Below, piece by piece: positions 23,975 to 58,626 of a stretch of DNA of 64,000 bases (position 1 is the first letter of the stretch; every line of letters begins with the position of its first letter). Where the stretch lies: the NCBI GenBank assembly GCA_036873755.1, contig JAVTVY010012683.1, positions 372,001 to 436,000 on the forward strand, read 5' to 3'. Under the pieces are notes generated by a model. The model was not told the DNA's origin and searched no databases. It worked only from the letters and a program-made list of their open reading frames with translations. The position numbers and the translations under genes were made by a program. This stretch comes from Hanleya hanleyi. Taxonomy: Eukaryota; Mollusca; Polyplacophora; Lepidopleurida; Hanleyidae.

Positions 23975-25080
23975 GACATGGTAATGAAGAATATGCAAAG
24001 AATAATTGGATTTTTCACGCGGTTTGGCCGCCATTTTGTGAATTCTGCAAGGGGTTAATCTTTTGAACCCTGACAGATACATACTTCTGGGCTGCTGCAA
24101 TATATCGAGCAGCGCATGACGTATTCAAATACAAAAGTCGCATGTATATCGGTTGCTTGGTTCGGCGGCCATATTGGATTAACATAATTTCGTAAAAAAA
24201 CATCTGCTCCGAAACGGATTTACGGATTGCTCTAAAACTTGGCAGGCGTGATCACTGGCCTAATATATCGCTTATATGCTTAGGAGGATGTTGCGCTATT
24301 GTTTCTTTCATAGTTTGAAGTAACAGATTTCGACGGGGAAGTGAACTCAAAAGCATATGGTGGTCAGGATCAATAAGTTTCTAGGTCACGTGATTTTGAC
24401 CGCCATTTTGAATTATGTGAAAAACAAATTTTGCAAGGGCTTATTCTTTTGAACTCTGATAGATACAGACTTCGAGAAGCCCATAATGTGTTCAACTGAA
24501 CAAGTCGCATGCTGATTGGTTGCTTCGTTCGACGGCCATATTGGATTGACCTAATTTCCAAAAAAATCTCCGTCGACGAAACGGGTTCAAGTATTGCTCT
24601 GAAACTTGACAGGTCTGATTACTGGTCAAAGCTATCGTCAATTTGCTCAGAAGTTACTCTGGCAATTCAAAATGGCCGAAATTTTGCAAGTAACGGATTT
24701 CTACAGGGGAAGTGACCAGTAACATACACTAGGACATGGTGATTAAGAATATGCCAAGAATAGTTTTCTAGGTCACGTGGTTTGGCCGGCATGTTGAATT
24801 TTGTACACAATTCTACAATATTGCAAGAGCTTATTCTCTTGAACGCTTGCAGGTGCAGACTAGCCTGCTACACTAGATCGTGAAGTACGCGGTGTGTTGC
24901 ACTGAAACAGTTCCATGTTGGGTGGTTCGGCAGTCGTCTTGGGTTGACCATGGAGGTATAAATCAGGTTTATACCTCCATGGGTTGACCTAGTTTCACAA
25001 AAGTCGTTTAAAGTGACGGATTTCGAAGAGGAACGTGGCCAGTAATATATGGCAGCTTCCACTGAAATGTGAGCCAATGA
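23975..25080. repeat. Diverged tandem repeats of ~360 bp
   Basis: Three imperfect copies starting near 23975, 24365 and 24722. Each runs: tract with AAGAATATGC, (C)ACGTGGTTTGGCCGCCAT, TTTGCAAG, a TTGAACYCTG segment, then CGGCCATATTGGATT and GAAACTTGRCAGG. A further copy lies at 31722-31990 beyond the DDE gene. They are intronic or intergenic and non-coding. Confidence 0.75.
24941..24989. mobile_element. 31-bp palindromic micro-insertion with 9-bp target duplication
   Basis: The 31-base hairpin at 24950-24980 (arms ATGGAGGTATAAA, loop TCAGG) is flanked on both sides by GGGTTGACC. It sits inside a diverged tandem repeat whose other copies lack it (for comparison, CGGCCATATTGGATTGACCTAATTTC near 24530), which supports insertion rather than ancestral presence. 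Confidence 0.75.
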
Positions 25081-26342
25081 AGGGACCAATAAATAGATCA
25101 ACTGAATACAGTTTCTAATGATGTTGCTCGGAATGTTTTGTTGTCATTGACAAAAATGTGTTGTTCAGCATCAGAAAAAACAGTATTAACCCAGTATGTG
25201 ATGAACATAATATTTTTCAAATCTTTTTTATTTCACAAAATGGACATTTTTGGACGGAACGAACTCCCTGGTGCATGGGTGGGTATTTTCAGTGGTTTAA
25301 ATACATGTTTTCCTCCTCGTATTTGGTACAATTATGGCTCAGTTCTGTCCGAGTATCAGTCAATAGATTACATCATGAGAAAAAATGTCGGCAGGAAAGT
25401 AGATAAAATAGATAATTTTGTCAAAGAAGTCTGGGTAGCGAACGTAAATATTTGTCGTCCTCCATTATTACGTTCCCAGCCACCGTCCAGCTGAGCAACG
25501 ATGGATGTACGTTCACGTGGCCTGTGGTCTGAAAAGACCAGCTTGCAGCATTAACTGCCGTGAGAGCTCTTTTACAATGATATGACTGGAGTTTTGCCAT
25601 GGAATGCCACGGGAATGTAGCGAACATCAATTCCGCCCGATTAGACATTTTACGTCCGGAACATTCAATCTCTGGGGAAATCCCTTTGAGTCGTGCCGAC
25701 GTCACTTCCGCCTCGTTCTCTCCCGCCATTGCCTTCAACCGGATGGATGTTCACGTTGGGAAGTTCCTGCAAAGAATGGTAAGAGTTATTAATTCATGAA
25801 AAGATATCCGTCCGCTAATTTGCTGTTCGATACACAACTAGGAGGAGACCAGTATTAGGCTAATTTCGAAGATGTTATCGTTTTATAATCTGTTTTTTTT
25901 TAATGAATCTGCAAATCAATGTTGGATCAGATTTCTTTGGCGCCGAAAACCCCGACTGCTCCGTTGAAATAGTCGTTTCAAAAGTTCGAACGCAACTTTG
26001 GACGGCTTTTGTGCGTTGCGTACATAAATGAAGGACGGATCTTATTGTAATTACGTAATATGGGACGGATATTGCCTGAAAATAACGTCGGCTTGGACGG
26101 AACTCCTGTTGTTGTTGTTGTTGTTGTGGACACTATGCATGGCCCTTAGTGTGATATCTTTATCAACATATCAATCAAATGTTTCTTTTAAGTTAATTGT
26201 AGACAGTATTTGCTTCATGGGAGAGGTTGACGTATATTATTTCATCTATCCCACTATTTTTCTATGTATATTTTTTGTCAATATATTGCAATGCTGCATG
26301 GCATTCTCCATAATTATCCATTTTTTCTTTGGTTTTAGAACA

Positions 26343-28655
26343 ATGTCTTCGAGAGTGCAAATGTATAGAAAGAGACTAAAGAAAGAAAACCCAGAAAAAT
26401 ATAAGGAATATTTAGAGAAACAGAGAGTTCGAGTCAAAATAAGAAGAGATCAGTTGAAAGCAGAATTGAGCAAGAGGAAACCTAGTGTGGCTGCGACAGA
26501 GAAAAGAGAGCGGGAAAATGAATTGGCTAGAATCCGACAGACGCGTTACCTGCAAAGAAAAAAAGAGAGGGCAGAAAAAGGGGAACATTTGATAGTCAAG
26601 ATAAGTGGGGGTAAACCGTTGACAAGGAAGCAAAAGGAAGAACAGAAGCTCCGTTGGAGGCAGGCAAAACAGAAATACAGATCAAAACTGACACAACAGA
26701 AAAAAACGTGGATTAAACGAAAAGATAGGGAACGTAAATTGCAGAAAAGGGAACAGGAGCTTGCCAAACATAGACCGATCGAAGAGACAATATCACGTAA
26801 AACAGAGTGGAACTGGACTGCCAAAGCCAGAAAAAATCTACCATCGAATCCAGCAAATTTTGCTGCTGTTCTCCATAACTTGGCAACAAAGAGTTCTCTT
26901 CTGAAAAGGAAAGCGGTTGAAGAAATATTATCACAAAGGCCTCTCAAATTCACTAAACTGGGACTAGGCTCAAGCAGACAAGGTAGAACGGCGCTAAAGG
27001 TGATTGCCACAAAACTGCTGAAAAAAGCTGCAGACAGTGCCAGAAGTATTTCCAGACGAACGGGTCTAACTCGTAACACCTTAAGCAAGCTTAGAAAACA
27101 AGGCTTAAACAAAAAGCCTAGACAACCCCGCATCAGTCCAAATCTCGTCCAGAACTTCTACAAACGCGAAGACATTTCACGTACTCTTCCACAAAAACGA
27201 TTCGCCATGAAATGCGGGCCCGGGTATCTCCTACAGGTTCCCCTCAAAGCAGCATACTTACAGTTCAAAGAAGAACATCCCAACCAGGTTATCAGTTTTG
27301 CAAAGTTTGCAGCACTAAGGCCAAAAAATGTTCGCCTTCTCAATAACACTCACAGAGAGTTTTGTTTGTGCGTGTACTGTCAGAATGTTAGGTACAAGCT
27401 TTTGGTTTTGAGTCGACTATCTACATCAAGAAACTCGTGTCGAATAACCAACGAATCCCAGATATCGCAGCTCCTACTCTGCCCAAAATCTGATAGCTGT
27501 AGATTTCACAAACCGGAATGCATTAATGCAACATATCCTGTATGCAAGGACCAGGCCAACACTTTAAGAAACCACTTCAGTTATGTGCTCAGCAGGCCCG
27601 AAGTCTGCTGGAATCACTGGGAGAGAGAGAGAGAGAGAATTAGGGTTTAACGTCGCATTCAGCAATTGGAATCACTGGGAGAGAATTGCAGATCCAACTA
27701 CAGGGAAAAAACGCCGTATTCTCAGAACCAAGACGGGCAGTGGAAAAGAGGTGGTTGAAGAGCTGATAGAGGATGTTGTAAATCCCTGCCAGGGAACATC
27801 TTTTATCCAACATATTTTTACCGCCAGATGGCAGTCCATGCAGTATACATTCGCAAAACAAGAACTGAAAGAAAACTCTGTCATTAGTGTCATGGATTTT
27901 GCGAAAAATCGCACGATTCAATATCAAGACGAGATAAAGTCGGCATTCTTTGGCGCCACACAAATTACCATTCACCCAATTGTGACCTATTACAAGACAT
28001 CCGATAGAGTCGTCAGAGATTCCCTTGTATTCCTGTCCGAGGACATAAACCACGACTATCACGCAGTCAACAAGTACCTGACAGTGGCACAGGATCATGT
28101 GGAAAATAAACTGGGCACAACCCCGGTACACAACATAATCTTCAGCGATGGCTGTGGAGCCCAGTACAAGTCACGAGGACCATTTGGTGATCTCAGCATC
28201 AAAACCAATAAATTGAATCGTAACTACTTCGGGTCAGAACACGGAAAGTCAGAGGGAGATGGAGAGACTGGTGTGGTCAATAGAGCTATAGACCGCGCCA
28301 TACTGGGCAGACGAGTAATAATCAACAATGTTGAAGATATGTTCAAATTTTGTTCCGAAAATTTGACCATGGAAGACCCCCTCACTCAGAGGCATTTCTT
28401 TCTGATAAAACCTGAAGAAATTGAGAGGAACAAACCGTTCACAGAGGTGAAACTTTTACCCGGCACCCGAAAAGTTCACCAAATTTTAAACGTTCCAGGC
28501 AAGCCATACAGTGTCGTCTATCGCAGCTTATCCTGTTTTTGCCCCGCATGTCTTGATGGGAAGGGCGTATGCATCAACAAACCGTATGTTACTGCCTTCA
28601 AGGAGAAGAAATTACAACGCTCACCTGTTGTGATCGAGGACACTCCACATATTGG
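26343..28655 (+). pseudogene. DDE-transposase-like protein, main exon, disrupted by a LINE tail
   Basis: Exon opens after the acceptor GGTTTTAG (26332-26339), with ATG at 26343. The first ~230 residues are extremely Lys/Arg/Glu-rich with the signature RLKKENPEKYKEYLEKQR. A helix-turn-helix-like part (RSISRRTGLTRNTLSKLRKQ) follows, then Cys/His clusters (FCLCVYCQN, LCPKSDSCRFH). After the insertion come VMDFAKNRTIQYQDEIKSA (first Asp), FSDGCGAQYKSRGPF (second Asp), HGKSEGDGETGVV (likely third acidic residue), and YRSLSCFCPAC. This matches an RNase H-fold DDE family common in invertebrates, which I tentatively place near Sola. Positions 27609-27666 shift the frame by +1; without them the frame is open from 26343 to 28655. 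The exon ends in phase 2. It may be a domesticated transposase or an intron-bearing transposon gene. Confidence 0.75.
27609..27684 (-). mobile_element. Minimal RNase H LINE tail insertion with 18-bp target duplication
   Basis: TGGAATCACTGGGAGAGA is present at 27609-27626 and again at 27667-27684. Between them is only the (GA)n tract and about 28 bases of the LINE 3' tail (AATTAGGGTTTAACGTCGC). The duplication plus insert shifts the host frame by 58 bases. It is an extreme 5' truncation, and the identity of the two target copies indicates a young event. Confidence 0.9.
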
Positions 28656-29113
28656 GTACGGTATTTCTCTTTTAATATTTGTTTACTAGCAGTCAGTGCT
28701 GGCCGTGAGAGGAGAGTGGTCACTCTCCTCAAAGTGGTCACTCTCCTCAAAGTGGTCACTCTCCTCTCCCCTCCACTCTCCTAAAAGTATTTCAAGGAGA
28801 GTTAACGATCACTCGCCTTGAAAGTAAACTAAATACCTATGCTGTTAACAAATGTCTTGATATTGCTCTCCTCTGCTCGCCTGAAGAAACTTGGAGAGTA
28901 TTTGGCAGCTCGCCTGCATTTTGCTCACGGACTGGCATAAAACAAAACTAATTCAGTCAGACCGACTTCATAATGTCCATTAGTTCAATCAACATTTATG
29001 CTGTTTAGCATTCTGAATAAGAACTGTTGTGAAGTACTTATAATGTGACCGCAGCTATGAAAACATAGATTTACTTGTACATTTAATACGTTCATTAATT
29101 TGGCCATTTCTAG

Positions 29114-29381
29114 GTTTCCAGAAAACATCGTGGACCAGGCCATTCAAGTACTGGTAGATGGTGCAGATCTCGACCTCGCCACCGACCATCCGGACCTGGC
29201 CGCTGACCATCCGGACCTGGCCGCCGACCATCCGGACCTGCCCGCCGACCATCCGGACCTGGCCTCCGACCATCCGGACCTGCCCGCCGACCATCCGGAC
29301 CTGGCCGCTGACCATCCGGACCTGCCCGCAGACCATCCGGACCTGCCCGCAGACAATCCTGACCTGGCCAGAGCTGTGCAT
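29114..29381 (+). CDS. DDE-like gene, exon 2, with DHPDLAA repeat
   Basis: Acceptor TTTCTAG at 29107-29113, donor GTAAGTG at 29382. The exon opens with one base completing a Gly codon from exon 1 and encodes FPENIVDQAIQVLVDG, then nine seven-residue units (DHPDLAA, DHPDLPA, final DNPDL) and ARAVH. The repeat is a 21-bp coding minisatellite (about 29179-29360) that is GC-rich, unlike the flanks. It is acidic and proline-rich, probably an extended linker. The complementary strand is also open because the unit lacks stop codons. Confidence 0.65.
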
Positions 29382-29677
29382 GTAAGTGTTGTCCTAATAT
29401 TGTATTGCCGTCTACCGGAGCGGCAAATTCCATTTATAATGCAGTAATGGTTCTGTTTTGTGATGTATTTAGTTATCATTTAAATAACTTTTAATGTTTC
29501 ATTCAGGGAAGTCCATGTAGTATGTATCGAATTTTGTTAAAATTGATGCAAGATTCTCTGAATAATTAATACAGACTAAAAGTTACTCACTTTCATATCG
29601 CCATCAGTTCACATGCATTTTTTCAGACAGTTTTTATTTTCATTCACCATAAATTCTTCAACGTTCTTAATTGACAG

Positions 29678-29721
29678 GAGTTGACCGATCCATCCAGTTC
29701 CGACGCATGTTCCCAAATTAG
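29678..29721 (+). CDS. DDE-like gene, exon 3
   Basis: Acceptor TTGACAG ends at 29677, donor GTAATTG starts at 29722. The 44 bases encode ELTDPSSSDACSQI plus two bases of an Arg codon finished by the next exon. Phases agree on both sides. Serine-rich linker with no recognised motif. Confidence 0.5.
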
Positions 29722-29936
29722 GTAATTGTCAAAATGTTTTATTACTCCGTCTTAGTGGATAGGACATACAATGTATAAAGGACAATATCTGAAAACTACC
29801 ATCTAAATATCCTTGGTTTGAAAATGCAAATGGATAAATTTATAATGAATTGTGAAAATGCTGGGTCAATGTAAACAGGACAATGTTTTCTTTATTGAAG
29901 GCAACAGTTCATCGATTAGTTACCGTGTATTTTCAG

Positions 29937-30012
29937 GAACATAAAACCATCAGACTTCATTTATGTGAAGTGCCCAACTGAAAAGAAAAGAACATTCCAT
30001 TATGTTGCACAA
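29937..30012 (+). CDS. DDE-like gene, exon 4
   Basis: Acceptor ATTTTCAG ends at 29936, donor GTGAGAC starts at 30013. Encodes NIKPSDFIYVKCPTEKKRTF then HYVAQ, ending in phase 0. The pattern (PSDFIYVK... HYVAQV) is the start of the small C-terminal domain that follows this transposase-like core in related invertebrate proteins. Confidence 0.6.
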
Positions 30013-30527
30013 GTGAGACTGTTCATGACGAGTTATGCGTTCATTGTCAATTTATGGTTCAGTGTTCTCAGTGAAATTATACATTACACAGCTTTTGCAT
30101 GATAATGTTACAATTCTTTTTAAGCGATTCGTTGTGTAAGATATGTCAACCGGGTACACTTTGGAATAACAGTAGTGTATCGTAGGGAATGCCTTTCTTT
30201 GGGGTGAATGGTTCCCAACGATTGATCCATCTTGCATGACGAAACTGGCGCTCTTTCTTTGATATTTAGTGCATGTATTTTCACCTCAATTCATTCTACA
30301 CATTGATTTCAATATATGACTATCGGTTTTGCACATCTTTTAAATAACCTTCCTTACTCACCTGCAGAATTCTCGTGCAGGAAAGCTATATGTACATATA
30401 TTAGACATATCAACAATTCATTCAGTGCAAATCTGCTTCCTTATAAGCATAATGATTCATTTCAGTAATGATCTGTTATATATGTTCAAATAATACTTAC
30501 ATGTAGATCTATAAAATTTCTTTCCAG

Positions 30528-30737
30528 GTGGTCGGTGTTGGCCCAGGGAGCTTAACTATTCGGTACCTCTTCCAGCCTTACAAGGGGCAGCCAGCGGTAT
30601 GGGCATGGCGAGATGGCTTCGATTATGATGTGGATATGTCTTCTGTCACCAGAGTTCTTGAAGAACCTGAACTTATCTCACACCAACGTTCAGGGGATGT
30701 TTATTTTAAATTTCATGAACTGGAACATGAACTCTAG
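30528..30737 (+). CDS. DDE-like gene, terminal exon
   Basis: Acceptor CTTTCCAG ends at 30527; the frame runs VVGVGPGSLTIRYLFQP, then WAWRDGFDYDV, then ...VYFKFHELEHEL to TAG at 30735-30737. It completes the C-terminal domain begun in exon 4 (a beta-rich module ending in a Y-F-K-F strand). The stop is followed by an AATAAA about 95 bases on. Confidence 0.65.
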   Translation: MVGVGPGSLTIRYLFQPYKGQPAVWAWRDGFDYDVDMSSVTRVLEEPELISHQRSGDVYFKFHELEHEL

Positions 30738-30832
30738 TGTGAGCGAGAGAGTGTGAAACTATGGCTTCATCATCATCCTTAACGCGTTGAACCAGACCAT
30801 CAGACTGTCGGCTGATATCTTTGCATGTTGAG

Positions 30833-30838
30833 AATAAA
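30833..30838 (+). promoter_or_regulatory. Polyadenylation signal of the DDE-like gene
   Basis: AATAAA about 95 bases after the stop codon of the terminal exon, followed by T-rich sequence (TTTGTTTACTTG). Its placement fits a 3' end and supports the five-exon model. Confidence 0.5.
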
Positions 30839-31721
30839 TAACTGGGTTTGACAAAACTGACAACTTTTGTTTACTTGTTTTATGAAGAGTATATTTGTGC
30901 TATCCAGTTGTTACATTCAATACAGACATGCAGTAATTCTGGGCGAATAAGTTTTTACTGTTAGTTTTCCGTCCTTTGTGATGTTATCAACAACTTCAAA
31001 TAAAACTCAAGAAAATGTCCCCAAAGTTTGCTGTCTTTATCCCAGGCTTGTTTCATGCATAAAATTCCTTTTTGAATAAGTTTGGTACAAGTGAGTGCAG
31101 AATGGTGGGTCAGAGAATATTGCCTTCAGGTGGTGTTGCTAACATCACATCTAATCTGTCCAAATTGATGTTAGTAACAGGCCGACAAAAATGGATCGAA
31201 AAATTTAAACCAAACTTAAATTCCTGAAAGTGACTGGTTATATGAGTTTAGTTGTTTCCTTCATTGCCCTCTAACTTGTCAAACCCAGTTTTCCTTGATC
31301 AACCTTGTCTCTACAGAACTGGATGCATGCAAGGATTTACCACTGGTCGAGAGCCAACACGAAAGAATTTGTGTGTTCATTGGAAATACAATAGTCCTTG
31401 TGTTATCTTTCCTGCTACCTCTCAGTGAGCTTGAAAATGATGAATAACCATATTATGCAGAACTTTCTGCACTGGAATTGTGTCAGTAACTCAAATTCAC
31501 GGCTGCCTATTTACATGATTTATTCAAAGAAGCTCAAATTAGTGGAAATTCAATTTCACCTGAGGCTGAAATTATACTGGTCCGTGTCTGGCTTTTGTTT
31601 CTAAAACGTTCTTTGGGTTCTGATGGATAAAGAAAAACAAAAAACTTCATGATTTGGTCAACTTCATTTTTTCTCTTCTCAGGGAGTGAATGGCTCATCT
31701 TTATATGGAATATGCCATATA

Positions 31722-31990
31722 GTAGGACTTGGTGATCAAGAACATGCAAATGATAGGTTCTAGGTCTCGTGGTTTGGCCGCCAGCTTGAATTTTGTGCAC
31801 AAATTTTGCAAGGGTGCAGACTTCTTGTATGCTACACTATATCAGGAAGGCCATGGTGTTTTGCACTGAAAATGTCCCATATTGATTGATTGAATAGTTT
31901 GGTGGCCATCTTGGATTAACCTTAAGGCCTTCTGGGATCTTCTTCTCTGGAGCCGCTGAACGAATGAACTTGAAACTTGGCACACATCGT
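31722..31990. repeat. Detached copy of the ~360-bp repeat
   Basis: Matches the unit at 23975-25080 (TGGTTTGGCCGCC, TTTTGCAAGG, GGTGGCCATCTTGGATTAACC) and shows that the repeat lies on both sides of the DDE-like gene. Bases 31990-32190 hold nothing further recognised. Confidence 0.6.
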
Positions 31991-32197
31991 CAATGAATCG
32001 TTGTCCCCCCACGATTCTCATAAAAAAGTTGGTACGTAAATCAAAATGGCCACCATCAATCGATCAAAATTAGCCAATTTTCACCCATCGGGTATAAAAT
32101 TTGTATATTTCGTGGCTATATTTGTATTTGCATTGTTTCAGGATGCTCCTGTTCAGTTAAATAGGTTTTGTAAGCCTGTCTCTATGTATGGTTGTAG

Positions 32198-34808: not shown

Positions 34809-34861
34809 AACCGAAGTAGTAGACAAACAATAAATTGAGTCAACTTTCACCCTAGATAAAA

Positions 34862-36900
34862 TGGTCCGATTGGGTCGAGTGAGGTATCAAAGTGAAGCTC
34901 ATGTGAAGGGGCATCTAATGGGCTGGGTGTGGGGTTGAACTATCGGCATTCTGCGCATGCGCGGTGGCCCAAGGGTATGAAAATAGCCGTTTTGGAGCTA
35001 GGGGAGTCCCTAATGGTCCGATGAGGTCGAGTGAGGTATCAAAGTGAAGCCTATGTGAGGGGGCATCTGATGGGCTGGGTGTGGGGTTGAATTAGGGTCA
35101 TTCTGCGCATGCGCGGTGGTCCAAGGGTATGAAAATAGACGTGTTGGAGCTAGGGGGTCCCTAATGGTCCCATGGGGTCGAGTGAGGTATCAAATTGAAG
35201 CATTCGTGAAGGGGCATGTGATGGGCTGGGTGTGGGGTTGAATTAGGGTCATTCTGCGCATGCGCGGTGGCCCAAGGGTATGAAAATAGACGTTTTGGAG
35301 CTAGGGGAGTCACTAATGGTCCAATGGGGTCGAGTGAGGTATCAAAGTGAAGCATTCGTGAAGGGGCATCTAATGGGCTGAGTGTGGGGTTGAAACATCG
35401 GCATTTTGCGCATGCGCGGTGGCCCAAGGGTATGGAAATAGCCGTTTTGGGAGCTAGGGCAGTCCCTAATGGGCCGATGGAGTTGTATGAGGTATCCATG
35501 TGAAGCATTCGTGAAGGGGCATCTGATGGGTTGGGTGTGCGCTAGGAATATCATTCTGCGCATGCGCAGACGCAATGCGGAGCTCTCGTCCAATCAGAAG
35601 CGAGTATTTCAAATCCGTCACAGAGCTATCGTCCAATCAGAAGCGAGTATTTTGACCCGGTGCATTATGGGACATATCCAAGATGGCGGCACGTATGTTC
35701 AAGATGGCGGCACATCCGGTGTCGAAAACTGGCCATTTCGTCGGGATGTGGTCACCTAGTGTCGAAAACTGGACCCTGTATGGGTCCCGCTAGACGTTTT
35801 GGAGCTAGGGAAGCCACTATTGGTCCAATGAAGTTGTATGAGGGATCCATGTGAAGCCTAGGCGAAGGGGCATCCAGTCAATGGGGTGGGTGCATGTAAA
35901 AATTTTCCTGAAAAAAAAAAATACGGAACACGGACTTTATCGAAAAATCCGGGAAAATGCCTATATGGGGTATGGGGGGTATATAGGTCGCCGGGCTTAA
36001 CGGGGCTTGCCTATCAATAGAGTTATCTCCCCCTAGTTCCAGGGTGGGTGTATGTAAAAATTTTCCTGAAAAAATACGGAACACGGACTTTATTCTAAAT
36101 TACGTGAAAATGCCTATATGGGGTATGGGGGGTATAGGACCATCCTGGGAAACCTACTTCTCCACATTTGCGGTAGGGTTGTTTGGATTTGTTTTCTTAG
36201 TCTCGTCAAGACAAACATGATAGGAAGTGTCCCGGAGCGAATCGGTGAAATTTTTGAAAAAGTACGATATAGCCCCATATAGTCCCATACTGGTGTATAG
36301 GATCAATGTTTGTCCCCCTGGGAAACGTACTTCTATACATTTGCGGTAGGGTTGTTTGGATTTGTTTTTCACGTCTCGTCATTTAGAACATGATAGGAAG
36401 TGTCCCGGAGCGAAACGGTGAATTTTTTGGAAAAAGTCACCGCGGCCTGGGTAGGCCCATAGGCCTATACTGCATGGCTATGGGTGTATAGGTCCATACG
36501 GGGTGGACATGTTGGGAGTCTATGTGGGCCACTAATGGTCCAATGGGGTCGAGTGAGGTCTTATTGTGAAGCTCTCGTGGAGGAGCACTTGACTACACTA
36601 ATGGTTCGTCCGTGTTCAATCGTCAGCGCATGCGCAGACTGGCCCATATTATAGAAAGCAGGCATTTTGGGGGTATGTGTTTGGGTTAGAGATGGGCTAT
36701 TCACGGTTCGAATGGGTCGTGTGATGTATCCATGTGAAGCCTATGTGAGGAAGCCTCTGATGGCGTGGGTGTGGGGTTGAACTATCGTCATTCTGCGCAT
36801 GCGCAGCCTGGCCGTAGTATGGAAATATACGTTTTTGGGGTCTAGCCGAGCCCCTCATGGACCTATTGGGTCGAGTGAGGTATCTATGTGAAGGCTAGAT
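34862..36900. repeat. Left-arm tandem ~153-bp units with NRF1-like sites
   Basis: Units begin near 34862, 35013, 35166, 35319 and 35474, with diverged ones to 36900. Each has GGTCGAGTGAGGTATCAAAG, then a GGCATCTGATGGGCTGGGTG-like stretch, then TGCGCATGCGCGGTGG, then CGTTTTGGAGCTAGGG. From 35880 to 36500 two other short repeats (GGAACACGGACTTTAT; GTGTCCCGGAGCGAA) occur twice each. The same units appear inverted at 40853-41245. Confidence 0.85.
35560..35770. promoter_or_regulatory. Dense cluster of vertebrate-type promoter motifs
   Basis: In ~200 bases one sees TGCGCATGCGCA (NRF1-like), CCAATCAGAAGCG twice (CCAAT/NF-Y-like), GCATTATGGGA (ZNF143-like), and CAAGATGGCGGC twice (YY1-like). These are established TATA-less promoter motifs. 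Orientation of any transcript is not evident; the zinc-finger genes start 2.6 kb away on the minus strand, so this could serve a transcript entering the left arm or be a lost gene's promoter. Confidence 0.4.
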
Positions 36901-37195
36901 GTGGGGAGCTAGACTAATTATATATTCTGTATTATACAATCGGATAGCGGTTGTCGTGAATAACAACAAGTTCAGCAATGTTTATATAGTTTATTATCCC
37001 CAATGTTACATCATACCCAGGCTGGGGGAGCCGCCCTGGGTATGTTTAGTATGTTAACAGCAAAACAAATTGAAATATTAAACACCATGTTTTATTATTT
37101 AACGCACCGTCACATTAGGTACAAGTGTTTACTGAGCTCAAGTCAACGATCAGCATGTAGACATAGAGAGTATGGGCGGCATGTTATGGTATTCA

Positions 37196-43718: not shown

Positions 43719-43789
43719 ATATGGGAGTAGCTAAGATTCATAGCGTCTCACTTCAAGGGAGACGCTATGAATCTTAGCTAATATGGGAG
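43719..43789. mobile_element. 53-bp palindromic micro-insertion with 9-bp target duplication
   Basis: The palindrome 43728-43780 has 22-base perfect arms starting TAGCTAAGATTCATAGCG and a 9-base loop. ATATGGGAG occurs directly on both sides (43719-43727 and 43781-43789). The first 18 bases of the arm also occur once, unpaired, at 45688-45705 in the CCHC-type ORF fragment. Confidence 0.85.
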
Positions 43790-43880
43790 GTTCTCGAAAG
43801 TAGTCAGTCAGTGATTTGCACGTGCAATTTCGTATAGATCGTTATTTTGAGTATTTCTGGAGTTTTAAGCTGGTAAAAGC

Positions 43881-44204
43881 TCACCAATCTCTAATGTAGG
43901 AGTTGTCACAGCGAAACAGCTCACCAATTACCAGTATACGAGTTGTCAGAGCATTTCCATCATAGCTCTCTAGATTTGTATCTAATACCGCTTATGCCGG
44001 TGCTAGGGGCCGTGTGGTCATATCATCCAAGTTGCCACATGAACAGGTACAATAAAAGCGTACCTGAGATACAACACATATCACGAATCGTTAGATTCTT
44101 GGTATGTGCTTTAGAATAGGTTAACCAGAAGACTATTCTGTGAAGTCATGTGACGCAGTCAGTATGTCGGCACCTCTTCCCACTTCCCTTATATGTGTTG
44201 TAAT
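43881..44204. repeat. Long direct repeat, copy 1 (copy 2 at 44390-44714)
   Basis: About 324 bases, nearly identical in the two copies, from CTCACCAATCTCTAATGTAG to TTATATGTGTTGTAATT, with ~185 bases between them. Both contain the structured RNA motif. Minus-strand open frames through each copy (44327-44133; 44932-44642) have different starts but share the last 23 residues (ITTHIREVGRGADILTASHD...). The arrangement suits the terminal direct repeats of a retroelement. Confidence 0.8.
43976..44075 (+). ncRNA. Conserved structured RNA motif in retroelement 3' region (copy 1)
   Basis: Begins TGTATCTAATACCGCTTATG, CCGGTGCTAGGGGCC, then stem A (GTGTGG with CCACAT) and stem B (GGTAC-loop-GTACC, loop AATAAAAGC), closing CTGAG. 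The equivalent at 48075-48187 keeps the first 40 bases and both loops but has different stem sequences that still pair. A second identical copy lies at 44484-44585; a decayed one is at 8991-9090. Class of RNA unknown. Confidence 0.5.
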
Positions 44205-44389
44205 TTTTTCCTGTATATGGCGAGATTCTGCTGGTGGACGTTTCGTCCCCGAGGCCCGCCCCCTGTACAGACCTTTTGGTCTTTGATATATGTTGGCATT
44301 TGTGGGAAGTTGATGCTGGGTCGACATCGGGCCTTACAGACTAGTCTTTTGTGTTAATTGCCGTCATTTACATCTGACGACAATACAGC

Positions 44390-44714
44390 TCACCAATCTC
44401 TAATGTAGGAGTTGTCACAGCGAAACAGCTCACCAATTACCAGTATACGAGTTGTCAGAGCATTTCCATCATAGCTCTCTAGATTTGTATCTAATACCGC
44501 TTATGCCGGTGCTAGGGGCCGTGTGGTCATATCATCCAAGTTGCCACATGAACAGGTACAATAAAAGCGTACCTGAGATACAACACATATCACGAATCGT
44601 TAGATTCTTGGTATGTGCTTTAGAATAGGTTTACCAGAAGACTATTCTGTGAAGTCATGTGACGCAGTCAGTATGTCGGCACCTCTTCCCACTTCCCTTA
44701 TATGTGTTGTAATT
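44390..44714. repeat. Long direct repeat, copy 2
   Basis: See the copy at 43881. Near-identity of the two copies argues for a recent duplication or for terminal repeats copied in one replication cycle. Confidence 0.8.
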
Positions 44715-45308: not shown

Positions 45309-45374
45309 GCGTGCTTTTAGCTAAACAATATATAGCCCTCGTGAGGGCTATATATTATTTAGCTAGCGTGCTTT
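45309..45374. mobile_element. 48-bp palindromic micro-insertion with 9-bp target duplication
   Basis: Palindrome 45318-45365 begins TAGCTAAACAATATATAGCC and ends with its near-exact complement; GCGTGCTTT flanks it at 45309-45317 and 45366-45374. Confidence 0.85.
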
Positions 45375-45424
45375 GAAAGAGTTTGTCGGATCAGGGCCGA
45401 AAGTCCTTGATGGATTAGCGCAGG

Positions 45425-45475
45425 TAGCTAAATAATATATAGCCCTCTACTAGAGGGCTATATATTATTTAGCTA
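45425..45475. mobile_element. 51-bp palindrome, same family as 45318
   Basis: Arms start TAGCTAAATAATATATAGCC and pair almost to the centre (CTCTA/CTAGAG). Only AGG is shared by the two flanks, so the 9-bp duplication is not seen; the copy lies 60 bases from the one at 45318 and could have been rearranged with it. It stands just before the CCHC-type ORF. Confidence 0.75.
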
Positions 45476-45477
45476 AG

Positions 45478-45795
45478 GTGACAAAGGATCAGGTCAGAGA
45501 TTTTCTCCTCTTAAACGGTATCTTGGATTTTCAAGATCAGTGCGGTCACTTTGAGGAGACAGTACTTGTCAGAATAAAATGCCCACACACTGACATTAGA
45601 CATATTTTTGAGAAATATGGTAAAGTGCATGACATTTCTCATGAGTACTATACTTTTAACAGAGATTTAAAAACTGGGAGTAGGATAGCTAAGATTCATA
45701 GCGGACGGTGTGGGTATCTGACATCAAAACCACTCTCACCCCCACACACAGTTATGTTTGGAGAATTCAGACTTCCTTTTTGGTATAAAGGTTAG
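45478..45795 (+). pseudogene. Retroelement ORF1-like RNA-binding fragment
   Basis: About 105 codons. The order TDIRHIFEKYGKVHDISHEYY then KTGSRIAKI and a closing FRLPFWYKG resembles the RRM-like domain that precedes CCHC zinc knuckles in ORF1 proteins of invertebrate LINEs (YG-x-V, TG-x-R, Y-x-G endings). The knuckles themselves are absent after 45795. The start codon is uncertain: a palindromic insertion ends three bases upstream, so the N-terminus was cut. Likely role when intact: binding of element RNA. Confidence 0.45.
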
Positions 45796-51075: not shown

Positions 51076-52021
51076 TAAAGTTGACATAGAATTAACACAG
51101 TAACCCAAACAAGTGAGTATTAAATAATTCTGAACCAAATAACTGAGTGAGTATGTCACGCGAGTCACCGTGGAATGGCTGAAATGAAGACAAATGTGAT
51201 TGACCATGTACATATTGGTTTGACCATCATTATGTTCAGTTTGTCATGGTCCAGGTCTGATGTTGAGGTCTGATAATTTGGTATGTTTAATTCTTTTGTG
51301 TTAAATCAAATATGTTCTTTTATGCTTGATATAAAATAATTGTCATTCCAGGGATCTATGTACATGTAGGCCTACTAGCTCACCAATAAGGTATTGCTCA
51401 TTATGAATGTTATGAATGTGTTGTTTTCTAGGTCCATTGTCAAAGTTCACCTCAAATATTTTGTGCTGTTATGTCTGTTATTGTTCTCAGAATGTAGTCT
51501 ATATGTATCACATACTAACTAGCATGTGCTTGTTGCAGGTAATATTTTGCATAATGATACCAAAGTTATGAACTGAGCGTGTTTGTACAGGCACACAAAT
51601 ACTGTCGGTTTATATGTTTAGCAAATGTAGAGTGTATATAATTACATAGTAAAGAAGAGTCATTACACCACTCTTCATATATATAAAACTACTTTAGCTT
51701 GGATTTTACTCCTGTATAAATAACCTTTCATATACATTACCTCAAATGTTACAATATATGATAAAACCATCCCATATTTTGTAACTTTCAATATAGCAAC
51801 ATTTCCAATATAACGACCCAATTCACGCCATATTCATTCATTATCACCATATTTCCATGCTCCATTATATATATATATACCGTGAATAATACTGTCATAA
51901 ACGGCAGCTCATAGAACTCCCATCATACTGTGCATGATAGTTCTCACGTAGTATAGAACAAGGCTACACCGGAGCTATCTTTTATAGTATTATTATCTAA
52001 TCAAAGACTTAGTGCTACAGC

Positions 52022-52225
52022 ACTTTTATTATTGTCATGTTTTTTTTTATTATTTTGTGCACTGCCTTATCAAAGGCGTTTGGTACAAATAAAATTGAAT
52101 TGAATTGTCTTTGTAATATGAAAAAGGTTGAGGATGAGCAACATTTCCTTTTAGAATGTTTACTATATCGGGATCTCAGACGGGACTTGTTTACTTTTTT
52201 AACCGCGCATCACGATCAAATACTA
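52022..52225 (+). mobile_element. LINE 3' tail inserted next to a LINE C-terminal fragment
   Basis: 52040-52107 ends in AAATAAAATTGAATTGAATTG, a LINE 3' tail. The bases after it encode CLCNMKKVEDEQHFLLECLLYRDLRRDLF, the Cys-His knuckle of another LINE's C-terminus. The latter is cut at 52231 by a word-array element. Confidence 0.6.
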
Positions 52226-52231
52226 CGACTA

Positions 52232-52440
52232 CACTCTAAGCTCAGAAGGTGTAGAAAAGGTGCAAAAAAGGTGTAAATCAAACGTTTACACCTTCTGGGT
52301 TCATGTTTACACCTTTAGGGGGTGTAAATAAGGTGTAGAAAAGGTGCAAATGTATGAAGATTGATTCCAACCCCGATTTTACACCCGTAAAGGTGTAAAT
52401 TTATTAAAAGGTGTTAAAAAGGTGTAAATACTTAATTTTC
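52232..52440. mobile_element. Word-array element built from AGGTGTAAA/TTTACACCT (left end)
   Basis: TA, then CACTCTAAGCTCAGAAGGTG, then some fifteen occurrences of AGGTGTA, AAGGTGC or TTACACC in both orientations. No right terminus was found by 52440, so this copy is truncated. Same word as 57712-58350. Bases 52441-53270 contain nothing recognised. Confidence 0.65.
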
Positions 52441-53273
52441 CATACACATTTGGAACTTAATTTCTATGCTGAGGAAATGTATTTCCTTGTAAACCATCAA
52501 AATTTTCAAGCAAACCAACTTTCTACACAAAATTAAATCAATGGATCTAACAATTTGACCAGTGTCCCTAACATTTAAGCAAAAAATCCAACGGAAATAT
52601 TATAAAAAAAACGAGCTGCAGACCATAAGATTCAATCCCCCAGTCGATTTTACGAGGGAGTGAAAATTGAACAGCCGATCTAGTGTTCTCACTCAAGGTT
52701 GAGCCCAAGACTACAGGGCACGGAGGGGGGGAGGGGCGTTCTGGGATTTTGAATATCAGCAGTATATAAAAACACGTTGTTTGTCGACCAATGTAAGAAG
52801 TTATCAGATCGATATCTACAGTGCTGATAACTGCTCAGCTATCAGATAAAGTGATTTTCAACTTCATTTCAATGGGGGATTTGCACAATAAGCAGTGAAT
52901 ACAACGGAAACTACAAATTATAGGCTATGATTGATCCACTGAGACAGGAAGGTGTGAAATGGACTAAACGGTTCGAAGTGATAATCATGACAGCTTGTTG
53001 TGCATGTTACCCATTAACAATTGTGCGATTATCGTCACAAATTATTACTTGATAAAGTAATGGTTACCATCCTGTCCGGAATCATAATCCGCGGCCTGCC
53101 ATTATCTCATATCTCTTTGACGCTAACGCAAAGTTTTGGTTAAACTATACATATCGGTGATGATTCTATTGCTCAATTAGTTATTGAGTTTATTCTGCCA
53201 ATGCCTAACAAAAATTGCACACAGCCGTTTTTCACGTCGCTCGTTCTATGCATCGAAGTGGACTTTTTGCGAG

Positions 53274-53419
53274 ATGGCGACTTGCCTGCTGTTGATCGGT
53301 GAGAACCGAAAGAAAATCGCTTTACCTTTTGCAACTCCCAGCCTGCGGACCTTAAAGATCACATTTCACAGAATGCTACCTTAGCTGATCTAATTGGCAT
53401 TAACGACGTAACCTTCCAG
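53274..53419 (+). CDS. First coding exon of a multi-exon gene (53274-57586)
   Basis: ATG at 53274 in MATCLLLIGENRKKIALPF, donor GTAAATA at 53420. The frame stays sensible up to TPSL, then only the next frame is sensible (DLKDHISQNATLADLIG...FTFQ-like ending, NDVTFQ). One extra G near 53347 (CGGACC to CGGGACC) would restore it, so either a base is missing from the assembly or the gene is mutated. The fold looks like a small N-terminal ubiquitin- or PB1-like domain, but no family is assigned. Confidence 0.5.
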
Positions 53420-55155
53420 GTAAATATGTCATATTTTTTAATATTTGTACAATATAATTGCCCCTGTGAACCCAGGTCGGAGAAGGGAGATACATGTAAA
53501 CAGGTATTTAGAGGGTGAAGAAAATGTTACATCTTACAGATAATTTATACCGGAGAATATATTTTTTATACTGTCGGAATCAGTTATCGAAACATAGTTT
53601 CAACTGTGCTAAACTTGTGACTCGATTGAGTATTTTCTTTTGCTCACGGTATTTCACTCACCTTCTGCCAACAGAGCAGAACAAGCTCGAAACTTTGTCG
53701 AATTAACATACATGCGAAAAATACGGTGCTATGATAACATACACTTTTGCCAAATTTGATTAATATAACCTGCTCCGACAGATTGTTTGACCCTTAATAA
53801 TATAGACGCTAAAAAATATAGAAATTCTATTTAAATGTCATCAATAGAAGGCCCCAAAATGAGATAGAACGAGTCAGACCTTGTTAGCCTGGTGCCCCGA
53901 TTATGTAAGCGCTTGTTACCTATACCATTGTGTTCGGGAACCAGGTTATAAATGATACTAGTCAATGCGCATGCGTACAAGGATCACGTGGGAGAAAATG
54001 GAGGGCGGTTTGATTTTCTTCGGGTAAGTCTTGTTTCAAACTTTGCGAAATCGTGTCGATTTAACCCACTATATTCGCACATATTTGTTAATATTATCTT
54101 CGTTAGATAGGAGTGCAACTACCTCGAAAACGTCACTGTTGAAATGTGCTCCAAAATGCTCAGCTCACATAAAAAGTAGGGGTTCATTTGCCTGAATGCA
54201 AATCCAATATGGCGGCATAAACTTGTTCAGTGATAGCTTTGCTCAGTTTAATGCAGTATACTTATAGTGAATTTTGGTACACAGTGTAATAGGAATAGTT
54301 AATAACGCCCAGTGGAACACTTGGATCACCATGGAACGATATGCTTGGGATATTTTGAGGTACTATTTACCCTTATACATATAATTTTATTAATATGAAA
54401 GCAGAATTATATGATGTTTAGAACAACATGCAGGCTTCAAAACATTACCGCTATATATACCGACCTGACCATATCGGTACTCCCTGGGACGTCCCTGGTG
54501 GGACTCCTATACATAATACGAGGGATTATAGGGCTCATGTCATACACAGTTTGATATCTGACCCGAGGGGCCGATTTGTCGGGGCCAGGTGAGATAATAG
54601 CGGAACGTAAGCTTGGATATTTTTTGAGAATGCCTCTGTGAGTTCGGTAGGTCCGCCTCTCGGATCATGAGCTTTGATATCCCCTGAAGAACCCCGGGGA
54701 GACAACTCCTTTACTGTTAAGGACAAGGCTTGTGTTTTGGTAGTGATTAAATATTGATTTTTCGGACACTTGGGGAAAATACAATACAGTAATACAGTCG
54801 GCACTGGACAGGCAGCTCATATCAGACGAATGATTTAATGAAGTTACTGACGTGAAATATAGTTCAATCTTTTAGAAATATTATCGATGTATTATGTATG
54901 TATTATTGTGTCCTCCAATATTTTGGGGAAAGGTCTAGAACCATCGCAAAAAGAATGTGAAAATTACTTCACTTGTCCGTTTTTTATTTAATTGTTCAGT
55001 CGCGAACAGTCTCCGTCTGGGTTTAACTACGGGGAGTAGTCGTATATATTTATTAACACCGCCGAAATAACCGGACCCTGGCCAGGCTAGACGATCGACC
55101 GTGCGACTTTATAATCCGATTAGCCTAATTCAGTCCACCGTTTACAGCAGGCAAA

Positions 55156-55440
55156 ACATACATTTACTCTTTGTTTCTGTGTATATTTCAAGTTAATAAA
55201 AATGGAACTTTAATGCATAAAGTGATAAGTATCATTTACATTGTGAGATTGACATTTCAAAACATAAATTTACTCTTTGTTTCTGTGTATATTTCCAGTT
55301 AATAAAAATGGAACTTTAATGTATAAGGTGATAAGTATCATTTACATTGTGAGATTGACATTTCAAAACATAAATTTACTATTGGGTTCTGTGTATATTT
55401 CCAGTTAATAAAAATGGAACTTTAATGTATAAGACGATAA
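55156..55440. repeat. ~107-bp tandem repeat, 2.7 copies
   Basis: Units begin near 55153, 55259 and 55367, each with TTACTCTTTGTTTCTGTGTA (or a close variant), CCAGTTAATAAAAATGGAAC and GATAAGTATCATTTACATTG. Non-coding, within an intron of the 53274 gene. Bases 53420-55150 contain no recognised exon. Confidence 0.9.
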
Positions 55441-55611
55441 GAAATATAATGATTATCTAATTATTAAAGCTATTCGTGGTTAAAAAACTTTTTGGTCAGA
55501 TATTGGAAGATGATACACAAATTCATGAAGAGCCTTCTTAATAACTTAAAAAACTGAATGGGTTTCTAACAACATAATACTAATTGGATTTGTTTTCTTC
55601 TGTTTCCAGTT

Positions 55612-55893
55612 CTTAAAGAGACTTTGACACACTTGTGGGGAAGGACATTGATAAAGAGTTCCTTAATTGGAAGCATGAAGAAATACACGTCAGCAGTGTT
55701 CAACATATTGGTTTCAAAACAAAAACAGCAGGAGTTAAAGACGCTGAAGGAAAATCCGTCATTGGAAGAAGATGATAAAAAGTGTGAGTATTTTGCAAAC
55801 CTGCAAAAATGCAGTAATCTATTGATCGGCATGATTTTCACTTGGATGGGCAGGACATAATGCAGATTAAGTTTGACATGAATTATTTGGAAG
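55612..55893 (+). pseudogene. Exon of the 53274 gene, frameshifted
   Basis: Acceptor TTTCCAG ends about 55611; the donor GTATATA follows GGAAG at about 55893. Sensible blocks lie in successive frames: DFDTLVGKDIDKEFLNWKH with SVQHIGFKTKT, then KENPSLEEDDKK and EYFANLQKCSN, then LIGHDFHLDGQDIMQIKFDM. A base is apparently missing at the start (GAGACTTT for GAGGACTTT). The end is in phase 1, which fits the next exon. Confidence 0.45.
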
Positions 55894-56161
55894 GTATATA
55901 TATTTTGAATCAACCAACCAGTTCGTAGATGTTGGAATACTGGACATACAATTGTTTGCCAAATAAAAATACCACTTTCTTACACATTTTATCCCTGAAT
56001 GGGTTGTTTATTGTAATTTAAATCAAAGGGAGATAATTAGCTGAAACTGCCTTTTTCAACCATTGAATGCAAAACAAAATGATGGGGGCGGGGAGGCTGG
56101 ATGGAACTGTCAAGATGTATTTTTCATCATTTAATTTAATATGGATTCTTTTTCTCATACA

Positions 56162-56239
56162 GATCAACTGGCCATTGCCGTGGTGCCAGTCATTGTGGGC
56201 CATTTCAAGGAAGACCTAACCATGCTGATCCAAAAAGAA
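56162..56239 (+). CDS. Exon of the 53274 gene
   Basis: Acceptor CATACAG at 56155-56161, donor GTAAGTG at 56240. With one base from the previous exon it reads DQLAIAVVPVIVGHF then KEDLTMLIQKE, ending in phase 0. Hydrophobic beta-like strand followed by an amphipathic helix. No family assigned. Confidence 0.5.
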
Positions 56240-56655
56240 GTAAGTGAATAATTCTTCACGAGTGTAATCGATATAGTTCCTGATGCTAATCACATAGATC
56301 TAACATACAACGTCGATGAGTATACAAGTAAGAACTTTAGGGCATTGAAGGCGGAAACTGCATTTCTTCTCTTTTCCCCTATATTACTTGTATGAATATA
56401 TATAACTTAGTAATGAGCGATGCTGGTTCGAATTGGAATTTGGCCTGGTTTGATATTTCTTAAGCCTGTCTAGCGTACAATCTGACACCTACCTGTACAC
56501 ACGATATGATTTATTACTACATCCGCAGGCAGAATAAAAGGTTTTTGGACATTCAACGTATAATTCAGAAGACTCAATGGTCATGATGGTAAAAGATTAT
56601 GATTGAACAATACTACCAATCCCATATGCTTATATATCTTTTATGTTACTTTCAG

Positions 56656-56925
56656 GTAACTCCAGGACATCAATTATTGTCCACCAGGGTTCCAATATGG
56701 AGACCGCGGATATAATCTCTGTCTATGTGGAGAAGCAGAAGCTTTTGGATACGACGGATCTCCTGCTGGGATTGAAATGCCTGCTCGCCGCATATTGTAT
56801 TTCAATATACGCTACAACGAGAAAGTTAACAACTCCTTGACATAACTGGAACTGCCTTTTCTGGAGTTGTCCTATACAAGGCCAAGACCTACCGTTACCA
56901 GGACGGTGTCAAAGTTACAGGAGCA
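56656..56925 (+). pseudogene. Exon of the 53274 gene, frameshifted
   Basis: Acceptor ACTTTCAG, then VTPGHQLLSTRVPIW in the incoming frame. Later segments are sensible in other frames: FNIRYNEKVNNSL, then TGTAFSGVVLYKAKTYRYQD and GVKVTGA up to the donor GTAAGAG near 56926. The switch before TGTAFSG again corresponds to one missing G (TTGACATAACTGG). Confidence 0.45.
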
Positions 56926-57552
56926 GTAAGAGCTACTTCTCACTTACAGAAAAACATTCTTGAACCATGACTCTTTATCATACTTTGTAAGGGTTTCATT
57001 AACTTTTAAAGTCGGTGGCAATTCACCAAAGTAGCAGGCAATTCTTATGGCATTTAACATTGAGTAATACAGACAACTAAGCAAAGTAGGTGGCTGCCCT
57101 GTTGAAAGTAGTCCCAAAAATTGTCGCCTTCTAATAAAACCCGTTATGAACATTCGGACACATATTAATGTGTATATTTTACCGCTTGTTCCCCCCCCCC
57201 CTCAACTCCCAATCAAGTGCCATTGCCATTTTTGTTACCTGTTATACCCTACTCTCTGAGAGTTTTTGATTTTCGGTCTCAGAGGCCAGGACACCCCAGC
57301 AGGTTATGTACAAAAGCATTCCATGACAGTTATCCTCACTCCACTCCACCCTCCCCCCCCCAAACAACTCCCCCACCCAGTGTCATTGCCATTTTTGTTA
57401 CCTGTAATACCCTACTCTCAAAGTTTTCGATTTTCGGTCACAGACTGTACGCGGGTGAAAGTTGGAGGCATAAATGACATGAACATAACGTGATCAATTT
57501 AGGTTGGGTTGGGATGCTTGTATTTTTAATCGTTTGAACTTTGTGCTTCCAG

Positions 57553-57586
57553 GGATTGAGAGTGAACTATGATATCAGGGAGGGCT
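57553..57586 (+). CDS. Terminal exon of the 53274 gene
   Basis: Acceptor GCTTCCAG; reads GLRVNYDIREG to TAA, continuing VTGA from the previous exon in phase 0. AATAAA occurs about 45 bases later (57631), fitting a 3' end. Between exons, 57190-57440 contains two copies of a ~125-base repeat with TTGCCATTTTTGTTACCTGT. Confidence 0.5.
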
Positions 57587-57711
57587 AACATGAAAAGACC
57601 AATGTAAATGTGCTTTTTGTGATTTCCTTAATAAAATATATCATACATATATTTTGTGTTAATGTTCTTATTGTGTATCTCGAACAAGAGCCATTACTGG
57701 GTGGTACGAAC

Positions 57712-58350
57712 ACCACTAATTCTCACTAAAAGGTGCAAATTAACACCTTTTGAAGGTGTAATTCTCACGAAATGGGTGTGTTTTAACACCCCTGGAAGAT
57801 GGAATCATCTCCAGAAGGTGTATTTTAGCACCTCTATAAGGTTTAAATGCGGCCAAAAGGTGTAAATAAACACACAAGAGGGTGTAATCTCAGTCAAAAG
57901 GTGTAATTCTTAATAATAAGGTGTGATTTAACACCCCTGGAAGATGGAATGATCACCAGAAGGTGTATTTTAGCACCCCTAGATGATTCAAATTTGCCTA
58001 AAAGGTGTGAATGAACACCCAAAGAAGGTGTAATTGTGTTGAAAAGGTGTAAATTAACACCACTGAAAGGTTTAGTTGTGGTCAAAAGGTGTAAATAAAC
58101 ACCCCTGGGGTCCCCCCAAAATATGCTTATAAATTTGTCTGGAAGGTGCAAATTTTATTCAGAAGGTGTGAATGAACACCCATGGAAGGTGTAATGTGAG
58201 CAAAAAAGGTGTAACTTAACACCTTTTCGCGAAGGTGTAAATTTACACCTTTCGGAGAGGGTGTTAATTCACACCCAAAAGGGTGTTAGCCCTGGGACAA
58301 GCCATTTACACCCCGTAGAGGTGTAATTTACACCTTCTGGGCTAAGTGTG
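57712..58350. mobile_element. Word-array element built from AAGGTGTAAA/TTTACACCTT
   Basis: About 640 bases with AGGTGTAA or TTACACC roughly every 15-30 bases, often arranged as hairpins (GTGTAAATTTACACC). The right end reads CACCTTCTGGGCTAAGTGTG then TA, the mirror of the left end at 52232. The left end is less clear (CTAATTCTCACTAAAAGGTG). Confidence 0.75.
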
Positions 58351-58572
58351 TAGACACACCTGAACTCGTGAAACTTTTATTAGTCACCTCTGGAGCTGGC
58401 AATTAGTGTTTCACATAATACAATCTCTTGTCTCGGCGAAAAATGAATCGGCCGAAGTATGGCACACTCGTACTATTCACACAGTTACATACATAAACTA
58501 ATATTCACTCATCTGTAGTGTATTGTTAAATAGTACAGTATTAACGTAATAGTTATAGAGAGTATTCGATAC

Positions 58573-58626
58573 TGTCATGCCTAGCTAAATAATATAGCCC
58601 TATATATTATTTAGCTATATCATGCC
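58573..58626. mobile_element. 36-bp palindromic micro-insertion with 9-bp target duplication
   Basis: Palindrome 58582-58617 (TAGCTAAATAATATAGCCC centre-deleted) is flanked by TGTCATGCC and TATCATGCC, 8 of 9 bases identical. It is a shortened version of the copies at 45318 and 45425. Confidence 0.75.

Follow-up and report, generated by a model that had tools for sequence, protein, structure and literature searches.

The 64,000-nt stretch of the genome of the polyplacophoran mollusc Hanleya hanleyi considered here (positions 372,001 to 436,000 of contig JAVTVY010012683.1, assembly GCA_036873755.1; hereafter, the window) harbors five tiny palindromes, E1–E5 (Table 1), first noticed in a reading of the letters alone (hereafter, the sequence-only reading); direct inspection confirmed the positions of all five. 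They are interpreted here as footprints left by the excision of DNA transposons with terminal inverted repeats (TIRs), a reading to which a probability of about 0.85 is assigned. It builds on end sequences common to the palindromes and to longer elements of the same genome (in E1, by position only), on a target-site duplication kept on both sides (documented in the E2 family), and on variable junctions between end remnants of bounded length. When the whole host assembly was searched (2.48 Gb, 52,793 contigs), 551 loci of this kind, referred to below as scars, were found: 100 of the E2, 402 of the E3, and 49 of the E1 family, the reversed controls giving 0 in all these searches.

The direct repeats at the palindromes of the window are less uniform than the 9-bp repeats originally ascribed to four of them: the repeats are perfect at E2 and E3, at E5 they agree in only 8 of 9 bases, and at E1 the repeat is real, its length being ambiguous because the palindrome extends to CC...GG. 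Three readings are possible: a 9-bp repeat enclosing ATGG...CCAT, a 10-bp repeat, or a 7-bp repeat, GGTTGAC, enclosing CATGG...CCATG. The lack of a direct repeat at the fifth palindrome, E4, was confirmed, and so was the division into at least three sequence groups, as the scars of the window fall into three end families (E1; E2; E3 together with E4 and E5). By reading, E3 itself joins about 20 nt of a left end to 28 nt of a right end.

In the chance test, a match consisted of a perfect 7-bp inverted pair, 20–80 bp apart, situated directly inside a perfect 9-bp repeat. There were four such matches in the real window (three of them the reported elements and one, at 11931–11951, in a local repeat) vs. 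none in 200 dinucleotide-preserving shuffles of it. No tiny palindrome with a 9-bp repeat was present in 200 kb sampled from four other contigs (20 × 10 kb), where the matches had arms 129–195 bp apart and were all in L025. Judging from the empty shuffles and from the sample devoid of tiny palindromes, the window is unusually rich in these structures, and the observation is real and sound. At the same time, the short pattern TAGCTAA-N(1-30)-TTAGCTA showed no genome-wide excess (471 matches vs. 927 for the reversed control); an excess appears only with longer, family-specific arms. The five scars in 64 kb, to which contig C11913 adds another two (at 1095 and 363795), form a conspicuous cluster of three families against a backdrop of 551 pattern-matched loci in 2.48 Gb, in a window itself chosen for its oddity. 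P elements are described as hopping locally, over ~50–150 kb (PMC7776569).

Table 1. Palindromic scars of the window and their flanking direct repeats (positions in the window).
Feature	Position	Strand	Remarks
E1 left direct repeat	24941..24949	.	GGGTTGACC; 7–10 bp, length ambiguous
E1	24950..24980	.	31-bp scar; ATGGAGGTATAAATC end family; ~15–16 nt per end
E1 right direct repeat	24981..24989	.	GGGTTGACC
E2 left 9-bp repeat	43719..43727	.	ATATGGGAG
E2	43728..43780	.	53-bp scar; TAGCTAAGATTCATAGCG end family; 27 nt (one substitution) + 26 nt
E2 right 9-bp repeat	43781..43789	.	ATATGGGAG
E3 left 9-bp repeat	45309..45317	.	GCGTGCTTT
E3	45318..45365	.	48-bp scar; TAGCTAAATAATATATAGCCCTC end family, CACGAG subtype
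E3 right 9-bp repeat	45366..45374	.	GCGTGCTTT
E4	45425..45475	.	51-bp scar; E3 end family, CTAG subtype; ~25 + 26 nt; no direct repeat
E5 left repeat	58573..58581	.	TGTCATGCC; 8/9 vs. right repeat
E5	58582..58617	.	36-bp scar; E3 end family; ~18–20 + 18 nt
E5 right repeat	58618..58626	.	TATCATGCC

The arm of E2, TAGCTAAGATTCATAGCG, is encountered genome-wide 1612 times on the (+) and 1604 times on the (-) strand (reversed control, 0). When (+)/(-) pairs of this arm were read by eye among the 100 matches listed, 30 pairs were recognized, two of them spanning 59 bp, 20 spanning 477–497 bp, and eight spanning 566–3618 bp; pairs of 60–476 bp were absent from these 30. Nine E2 elements longer than 400 bp were fetched, eight of which are flanked by perfect 9-bp duplications and the ninth by one of 8 bp. 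In seven elements, at least 57 of the outermost 60 bp agree between the two terminal repeats (all 60 do so in three of the nine copies); in the remaining two, the agreement extends through 42 bp in one and covers 35 of the outermost 36 bp in the other. Hence, E2 has the appearance of an ordinary TIR transposon family including copies similar to miniature inverted-repeat transposable elements (MITEs).

The search for E2 scars, for which both 12-bp arms had to be intact, yielded 90 loci of 34–64 bp and ten of 65–95 bp. Fifty of the shorter scars and nine of the ten longer ones (the 82-bp scar being left out) were parsed and found to consist of the first nucleotides of one transposon end joined to those of the other, in some cases with filler. 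The longest perfect scar, 68 bp or 34 + 34 nt, was recorded at four loci (C24795, C27371, C38709, and C43689), of which C27371 and C38709 have flanks in common; in the scars exceeding this size (73, 76, and 82 bp), repeated end sequence was recognized by eye as the filler. The junctions are diverse, 44 of the 50 listed loci being distinct. Stubs shorter than 12 nt, at the bottom of the size range, are represented by single loci only.

The flanks of 40 E2 scars were inspected as well. The duplication is perfect (9/9) at 25 of them and nine more retain 8/9, so 34 of the 40 share 8–9 of the nine bases, a level reached by mispaired flanks in 0.15% of cases. Since no E2 locus matched exactly at repeat lengths of 4–7 or 10–14 bp, the duplication is 9 bp long, as had been claimed from the window alone. 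Of the 24 distinct perfect repeats, 17 begin with G. A loose search had retrieved 12 look-alikes belonging to the two TAGCTAA families; five of them possess a 9/9 repeat.

In E2 and E3, the length of the stubs is bounded. The intact E2 end reads ...CCCTCACC followed by GCTATGCC (CTCACC directly before GCTATGCC), and the 34-nt limit falls exactly between the two; the intact E3 end, of which one was read, continues from ...GAGTATGAGG into GCTATAGG (TATGAGG directly before GCTATAGG), with the 35-nt limit at the same point. In both families, the limit lies directly 5' of the motif GCTAT, and an inverted ATAGC is situated outside the boundary at a distance of 17 nt (E2) or 16 nt (E3). The two ends have little sequence in common beyond their first seven bases; a motif shared at the limit by two otherwise differing families is predicted by a transposase cut and not by random deletion. 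One-base ambiguity aside, none of the 118 E2 stub ends passed the GCTAT boundary (59 of the 60 listed loci); in this parse, for which stubs had to match a manually compiled set of end variants exactly, private mutations cause stubs to be read as too short. Extra TA units in some E2 variants shift the boundary to 36 or 38 nt; e.g., at C10578, a variant with four extra bases, the stub is 38 nt long and still ends at the GCTAT motif.

Apart from the scars, an exact 18-bp match to the E2 end is located at 45686..45703 (+) of the window, within the open frame 45469-45792 (+) (IAKIHSG...WYKG). This frame is presumably similar to the first open reading frame (ORF1) of long interspersed nuclear elements, and it gave no Pfam match. 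The 18-bp match is unlikely to occur by chance and lacks a direct repeat; probably, it stands outside the scar system. An origin of the E2 arm in this ORF1-like frame was considered and rejected: the end has more than 1,600 matches, and its first seven bases are common with E3.

The E3 family repeats the same picture with another sequence. Its ends conform to TAGCTAAATAATATATAGCCCTC-(AC/AA/CC/TC/T)-GAGTATGAGG, the T subtype being one base short, and the full 35-mer of the AC type is present in 341 (+) and 341 (-) copies (control, 0). Fourteen pairs were recognized by eye among the 100 matches listed, nine of them of 487–517 bp and the others of 444, 756, 1089, 1388, and 1666 bp. The scars were almost equally divided between sizes of 26–56 bp (199 loci) and 57–87 bp (203 loci). 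The 100 scars listed comprise 88 distinct sequences and reach a maximum of 71 bp, two of them (C12592 and C6847) measuring exactly 70 bp, or 35 + 35 nt. The commonest size, 54 bp (12 of the 100 listed), corresponds by reading to one stub of the full 35 nt and one trimmed stub, linked by 4–5 shared bases (TGAGG or GAGG). This joint was found in several end subtypes (CACGAG, CAAGAG, and TCGAG), which argues that it arose repeatedly by microhomology and not by descent. Few E3-type loci were seen with their flanks: the duplication amounts to 9/9 at E3 and L013 and to 8/9 at E5 and in one host repeat, and it is lacking at E4 and L012. The latter locus (953-1040 of C4480) is peculiar in that an E3-type palindrome and, following it, a second, partial copy of its right arm lie between CCGCCGGC repeats, a composite scar as from template switching during repair. 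The E3 end pattern had no match in viral contigs.

In the E1 family, the end sequence ATGGAGGTATAAAYC gave 215/239 matches genome-wide (control, 8/9), and pairs of ~1.84 and 3.7 kb, with the largest reaching 6.5 kb, were recognized by eye, by position only, among the 100 matches listed. All 49 E1 scars were listed: 24 of them measure 31 bp, and seven are a perfect 36-bp palindrome (18 + 18 nt). On contigs C1090, C3181, C3441, and C7021, a pair of E1 ends 1.8–2.3 kb apart encloses the 31-bp scar, as though an E1 element had been excised from within another, which then multiplied.

Taken as excision footprints, the scars would record the following course of events. Insertion of an element would create a target duplication, of 9 bp as documented for E2; when the element is excised, the donor site would retain, from either end, no more than about 34 nt in E2 and 35 nt in E3. 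This limit, observed as a ceiling in the scars and placed on the intact ends, may represent the transposase cut. The ends of intact copies are complete, so the other strand of the stub stretch would have to leave with the element, and the cut would be staggered by 34–35 nt. The donor break bearing two inverted stubs would then be closed, to judge from the junctions, by end joining: a perfect palindrome of 68 or 70 bp would result from whole stubs, filled in and joined, and the variants of 23–67 bp from ends that were trimmed, joined by microhomology, or supplied with filler. Repair would be confined to the inner stub ends, leaving the duplications in place. The suggestion of the sequence-only reading that the palindromes are transposase-processed DNA comes close to the genome evidence.

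Several observations weigh against this reading. Excision is deduced in it from structure. Six of the 40 E2 scars fall below 8/9: one retains 7/9, two have a perfect 8-bp repeat (copies of one repeat), and three are unconvincing. The other seven of the 12 look-alikes comprise four at 8/9, belonging to one host repeat, and three with no repeat (L005, L010, and L012). An identical 59-bp E2 scar occupies three separate loci (C698, C1660, and C7386), and some scars were copied along with host repeats (C3618/C9272 and C27371/C38709), so the scar loci exceed the events in number. In E1, one and the same 31-bp sequence was counted by eye at 16 of the 49 loci, at least four of them inside a multiplied element. 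Eleven of the 49 E1 loci exceed 36 bp, most of these appearing by eye to be stubs of at most 18 nt with AT-rich or other filler; the E1 stub limit seems, from the scars, to be about 18 nt. The E3 cap is based on total scar lengths, its parse having used 35-nt references. Finally, no transposase tied to the E1, E2, or E3 ends was found in the searches that follow.

The open frames of the E2-type copies of 2355, 3039, and 3618 bp are short, none exceeding 109 aa from stop to stop. Coding-like sequence beside an E2 end at C493 was rejected as a candidate, as its reverse-transcriptase frames belong, by reading, to a retrotransposon without long terminal repeats. In 1.5 kb of internal sequence from a 3.7-kb E1 element (C9472), none of the seven frames tried gave a Pfam domain, the only match, to ATP-synt_8, being below the cut-off (E 0.11). 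The P-type transposase domain PF21788 has seven matches in the genome, in frames of up to 939 aa, vs. none in 14 control genomes; the two of these loci that were fetched (6 kb each) lack TAGCTA and an inverted end with a repeat, and none of the matches listed lies inside an E1 span (three of the seven were in the contig range covered). The domain PF10551 of Mutator-like elements (MULEs) has at least 62 matches (150 of the 175 candidates scored), none of them inside an E1 span, by eye, among the matches listed. Longer elements sharing the termini of the palindromes, as anticipated in the sequence-only reading, exist for E2 and E3 and, by position only, for E1; the transposase expected within them was found in none of those inspected. 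As a separate observation, two loci, L098 (C7342, 895-3711) and L099 (C34532, 2499-5165), carry intact frames of 939 and 889 aa with a P-element GTP-binding domain. The frames are 62% alike and possibly represent active or domesticated P-like genes.

The alternative standing nearest to the preferred reading accepts footprints and dispenses with the long stagger: a protein bound to the transposon end would block resection and thereby set the limit of 34/35 nt. In P elements, an inverted-repeat-binding protein has been proposed to protect the ends, and a bound protein could likewise respect a motif. The limit at GCTAT in two otherwise differing families is, however, as expected for a specific cut, and the blocking protein is regarded as unlikely.

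It is also decidedly unlikely that the palindromes are internally deleted derivatives, generated by gap repair that copied only a few end nucleotides or by random internal deletion. Variable junctions with microhomology and filler, as well as the longer E2 variants of 566–3618 bp, would fit such an origin, but the ceilings of 34 + 34 and 35 + 35 nt are exact in two families of different sequence, and the number of E2 loci falls abruptly above the ceiling (90 at 34–64 bp vs. 10 at 65–95 bp). Moreover, the 30 E2 pairs among the matches listed include none of 60–476 bp, sizes of 96–440 bp not having been searched directly. The earlier idea of remnants of larger transposons comes close, insofar as longer elements have the same ends; the wording "deleted down to their termini" lacks precision, as random internal deletion would not halt at one and the same motif.

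One of the notions put forward in the sequence-only reading, that palindromes of 23–70 bp are minimal mobile elements which themselves transpose and make 9-bp duplications, is poorly supported and appears highly improbable. It could explain why identical tiny sequences recur with different flanks (the 59-bp scar at C698, C1660, and C7386; a 55-bp one at C7130 and C9137), why 16 of 49 E1 loci are identical, and why many E2 scars have perfect 9-bp repeats. Against it stand the diversity of junctions (44 of 50 listed loci distinct in E2, 88 of 100 in E3), the capped stubs, the longer elements with the same ends, and the recurrence of one joint across different end subtypes; besides, ends a mere 0–30 bp apart would presumably have to synapse. 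The copying of foldback DNA into staggered breaks by repair, also raised earlier, would fit palindromes with 9-bp repeats taken alone, but the palindromes consist of the ends of specific transposon families, of which longer copies exist in this genome, and such copying is needless because a palindrome follows from joining two inverted ends; it can practically be dismissed.

Among the known systems, excision footprints with end stubs bring to mind the P superfamily. In the Drosophila P element and in vertebrate THAP9/Pdre2, the 5' strand is cut well inside the terminal repeat, so that the donor keeps stubs of the ends; the apparent 18-nt stub of E1 and, under one of its readings, an end starting with CAT also resemble this superfamily, the Pdre2 end beginning with CATACC (PMC10983969). 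In contrast, the duplication of E2 is 9 bp and not 8 bp, the length reported for P (PMC7776569) and Pdre2 (PMC10983969). The 5'-strand cut of the P element, 17 nt inside the end, has been called unusually long (PMC7776569); the stub limits of 34 nt in E2 and 35 nt in E3, together with the long repeats of E2, set these families apart.

The 9-bp duplication and the long TIRs of E2 are in turn reminiscent of MULEs, e.g., of Muta1 from Aedes aegypti, which is characterized by 8–9-bp duplications, long TIRs, and short non-autonomous copies (PMC5225508). Excision of Muta1 in yeast was mostly precise, leaving donor duplications, or was accompanied by deletions, mainly of 1–4 bp, without them (PMC5225508); end stubs of 34 nt do not figure in the description consulted. 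With regard to near-precise excision as a MULE trait, stubs of up to 34–35 nt are what is seen here; precise excisions are traceless and hence uncountable. The ~480–517-bp copies of E2 and E3 resemble ordinary MITE-like non-autonomous elements, unlike the 23–70-bp palindromes, which resemble joints of two end stubs. Overall, there is about an even chance that the scars reveal a metazoan lineage of 9-bp-duplicating transposons with a staggered excision cut of 34–35 nt, set by GCTAT and about twice as long as the 17 nt of the P element. Footprints as such are well established; among animal transposons, the apparent novelty is the position of the cut. A literature search limited to titles and the beginnings of abstracts returned, among the matches listed, no description of such scars and none of a 34–35-nt geometry of the excision cut.

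The rest of the window displays features of other kinds. Two near-identical 300-bp direct repeats (43878-44177 and 44387-44686), 509 bp apart, are located between the E2 and E3 scars. A frame with a GIY-YIG domain at 3923-4813 (-) (Pfam E 1.2e-4) adjoins a long frame of the same strand at 5343-6113 (-); together, they suggest a Penelope-like retroelement. Tandem arrays are situated at 29125-29390 (~21-bp unit), 20635-22035 (~157 bp), and 34838-36906 (~152 bp).

The cut sites of transposases are normally learned at the bench; the scars described here seem to give this position to the nucleotide in two families. Each scar would also represent a break of known starting structure, the independent events being fewer than the 551 loci. 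If the footprint reading is true, several hundred scars in one genome make up a ready record of germline break repair, from which fill-in, microhomology joining, and filler synthesis in the animal germline could be read directly.

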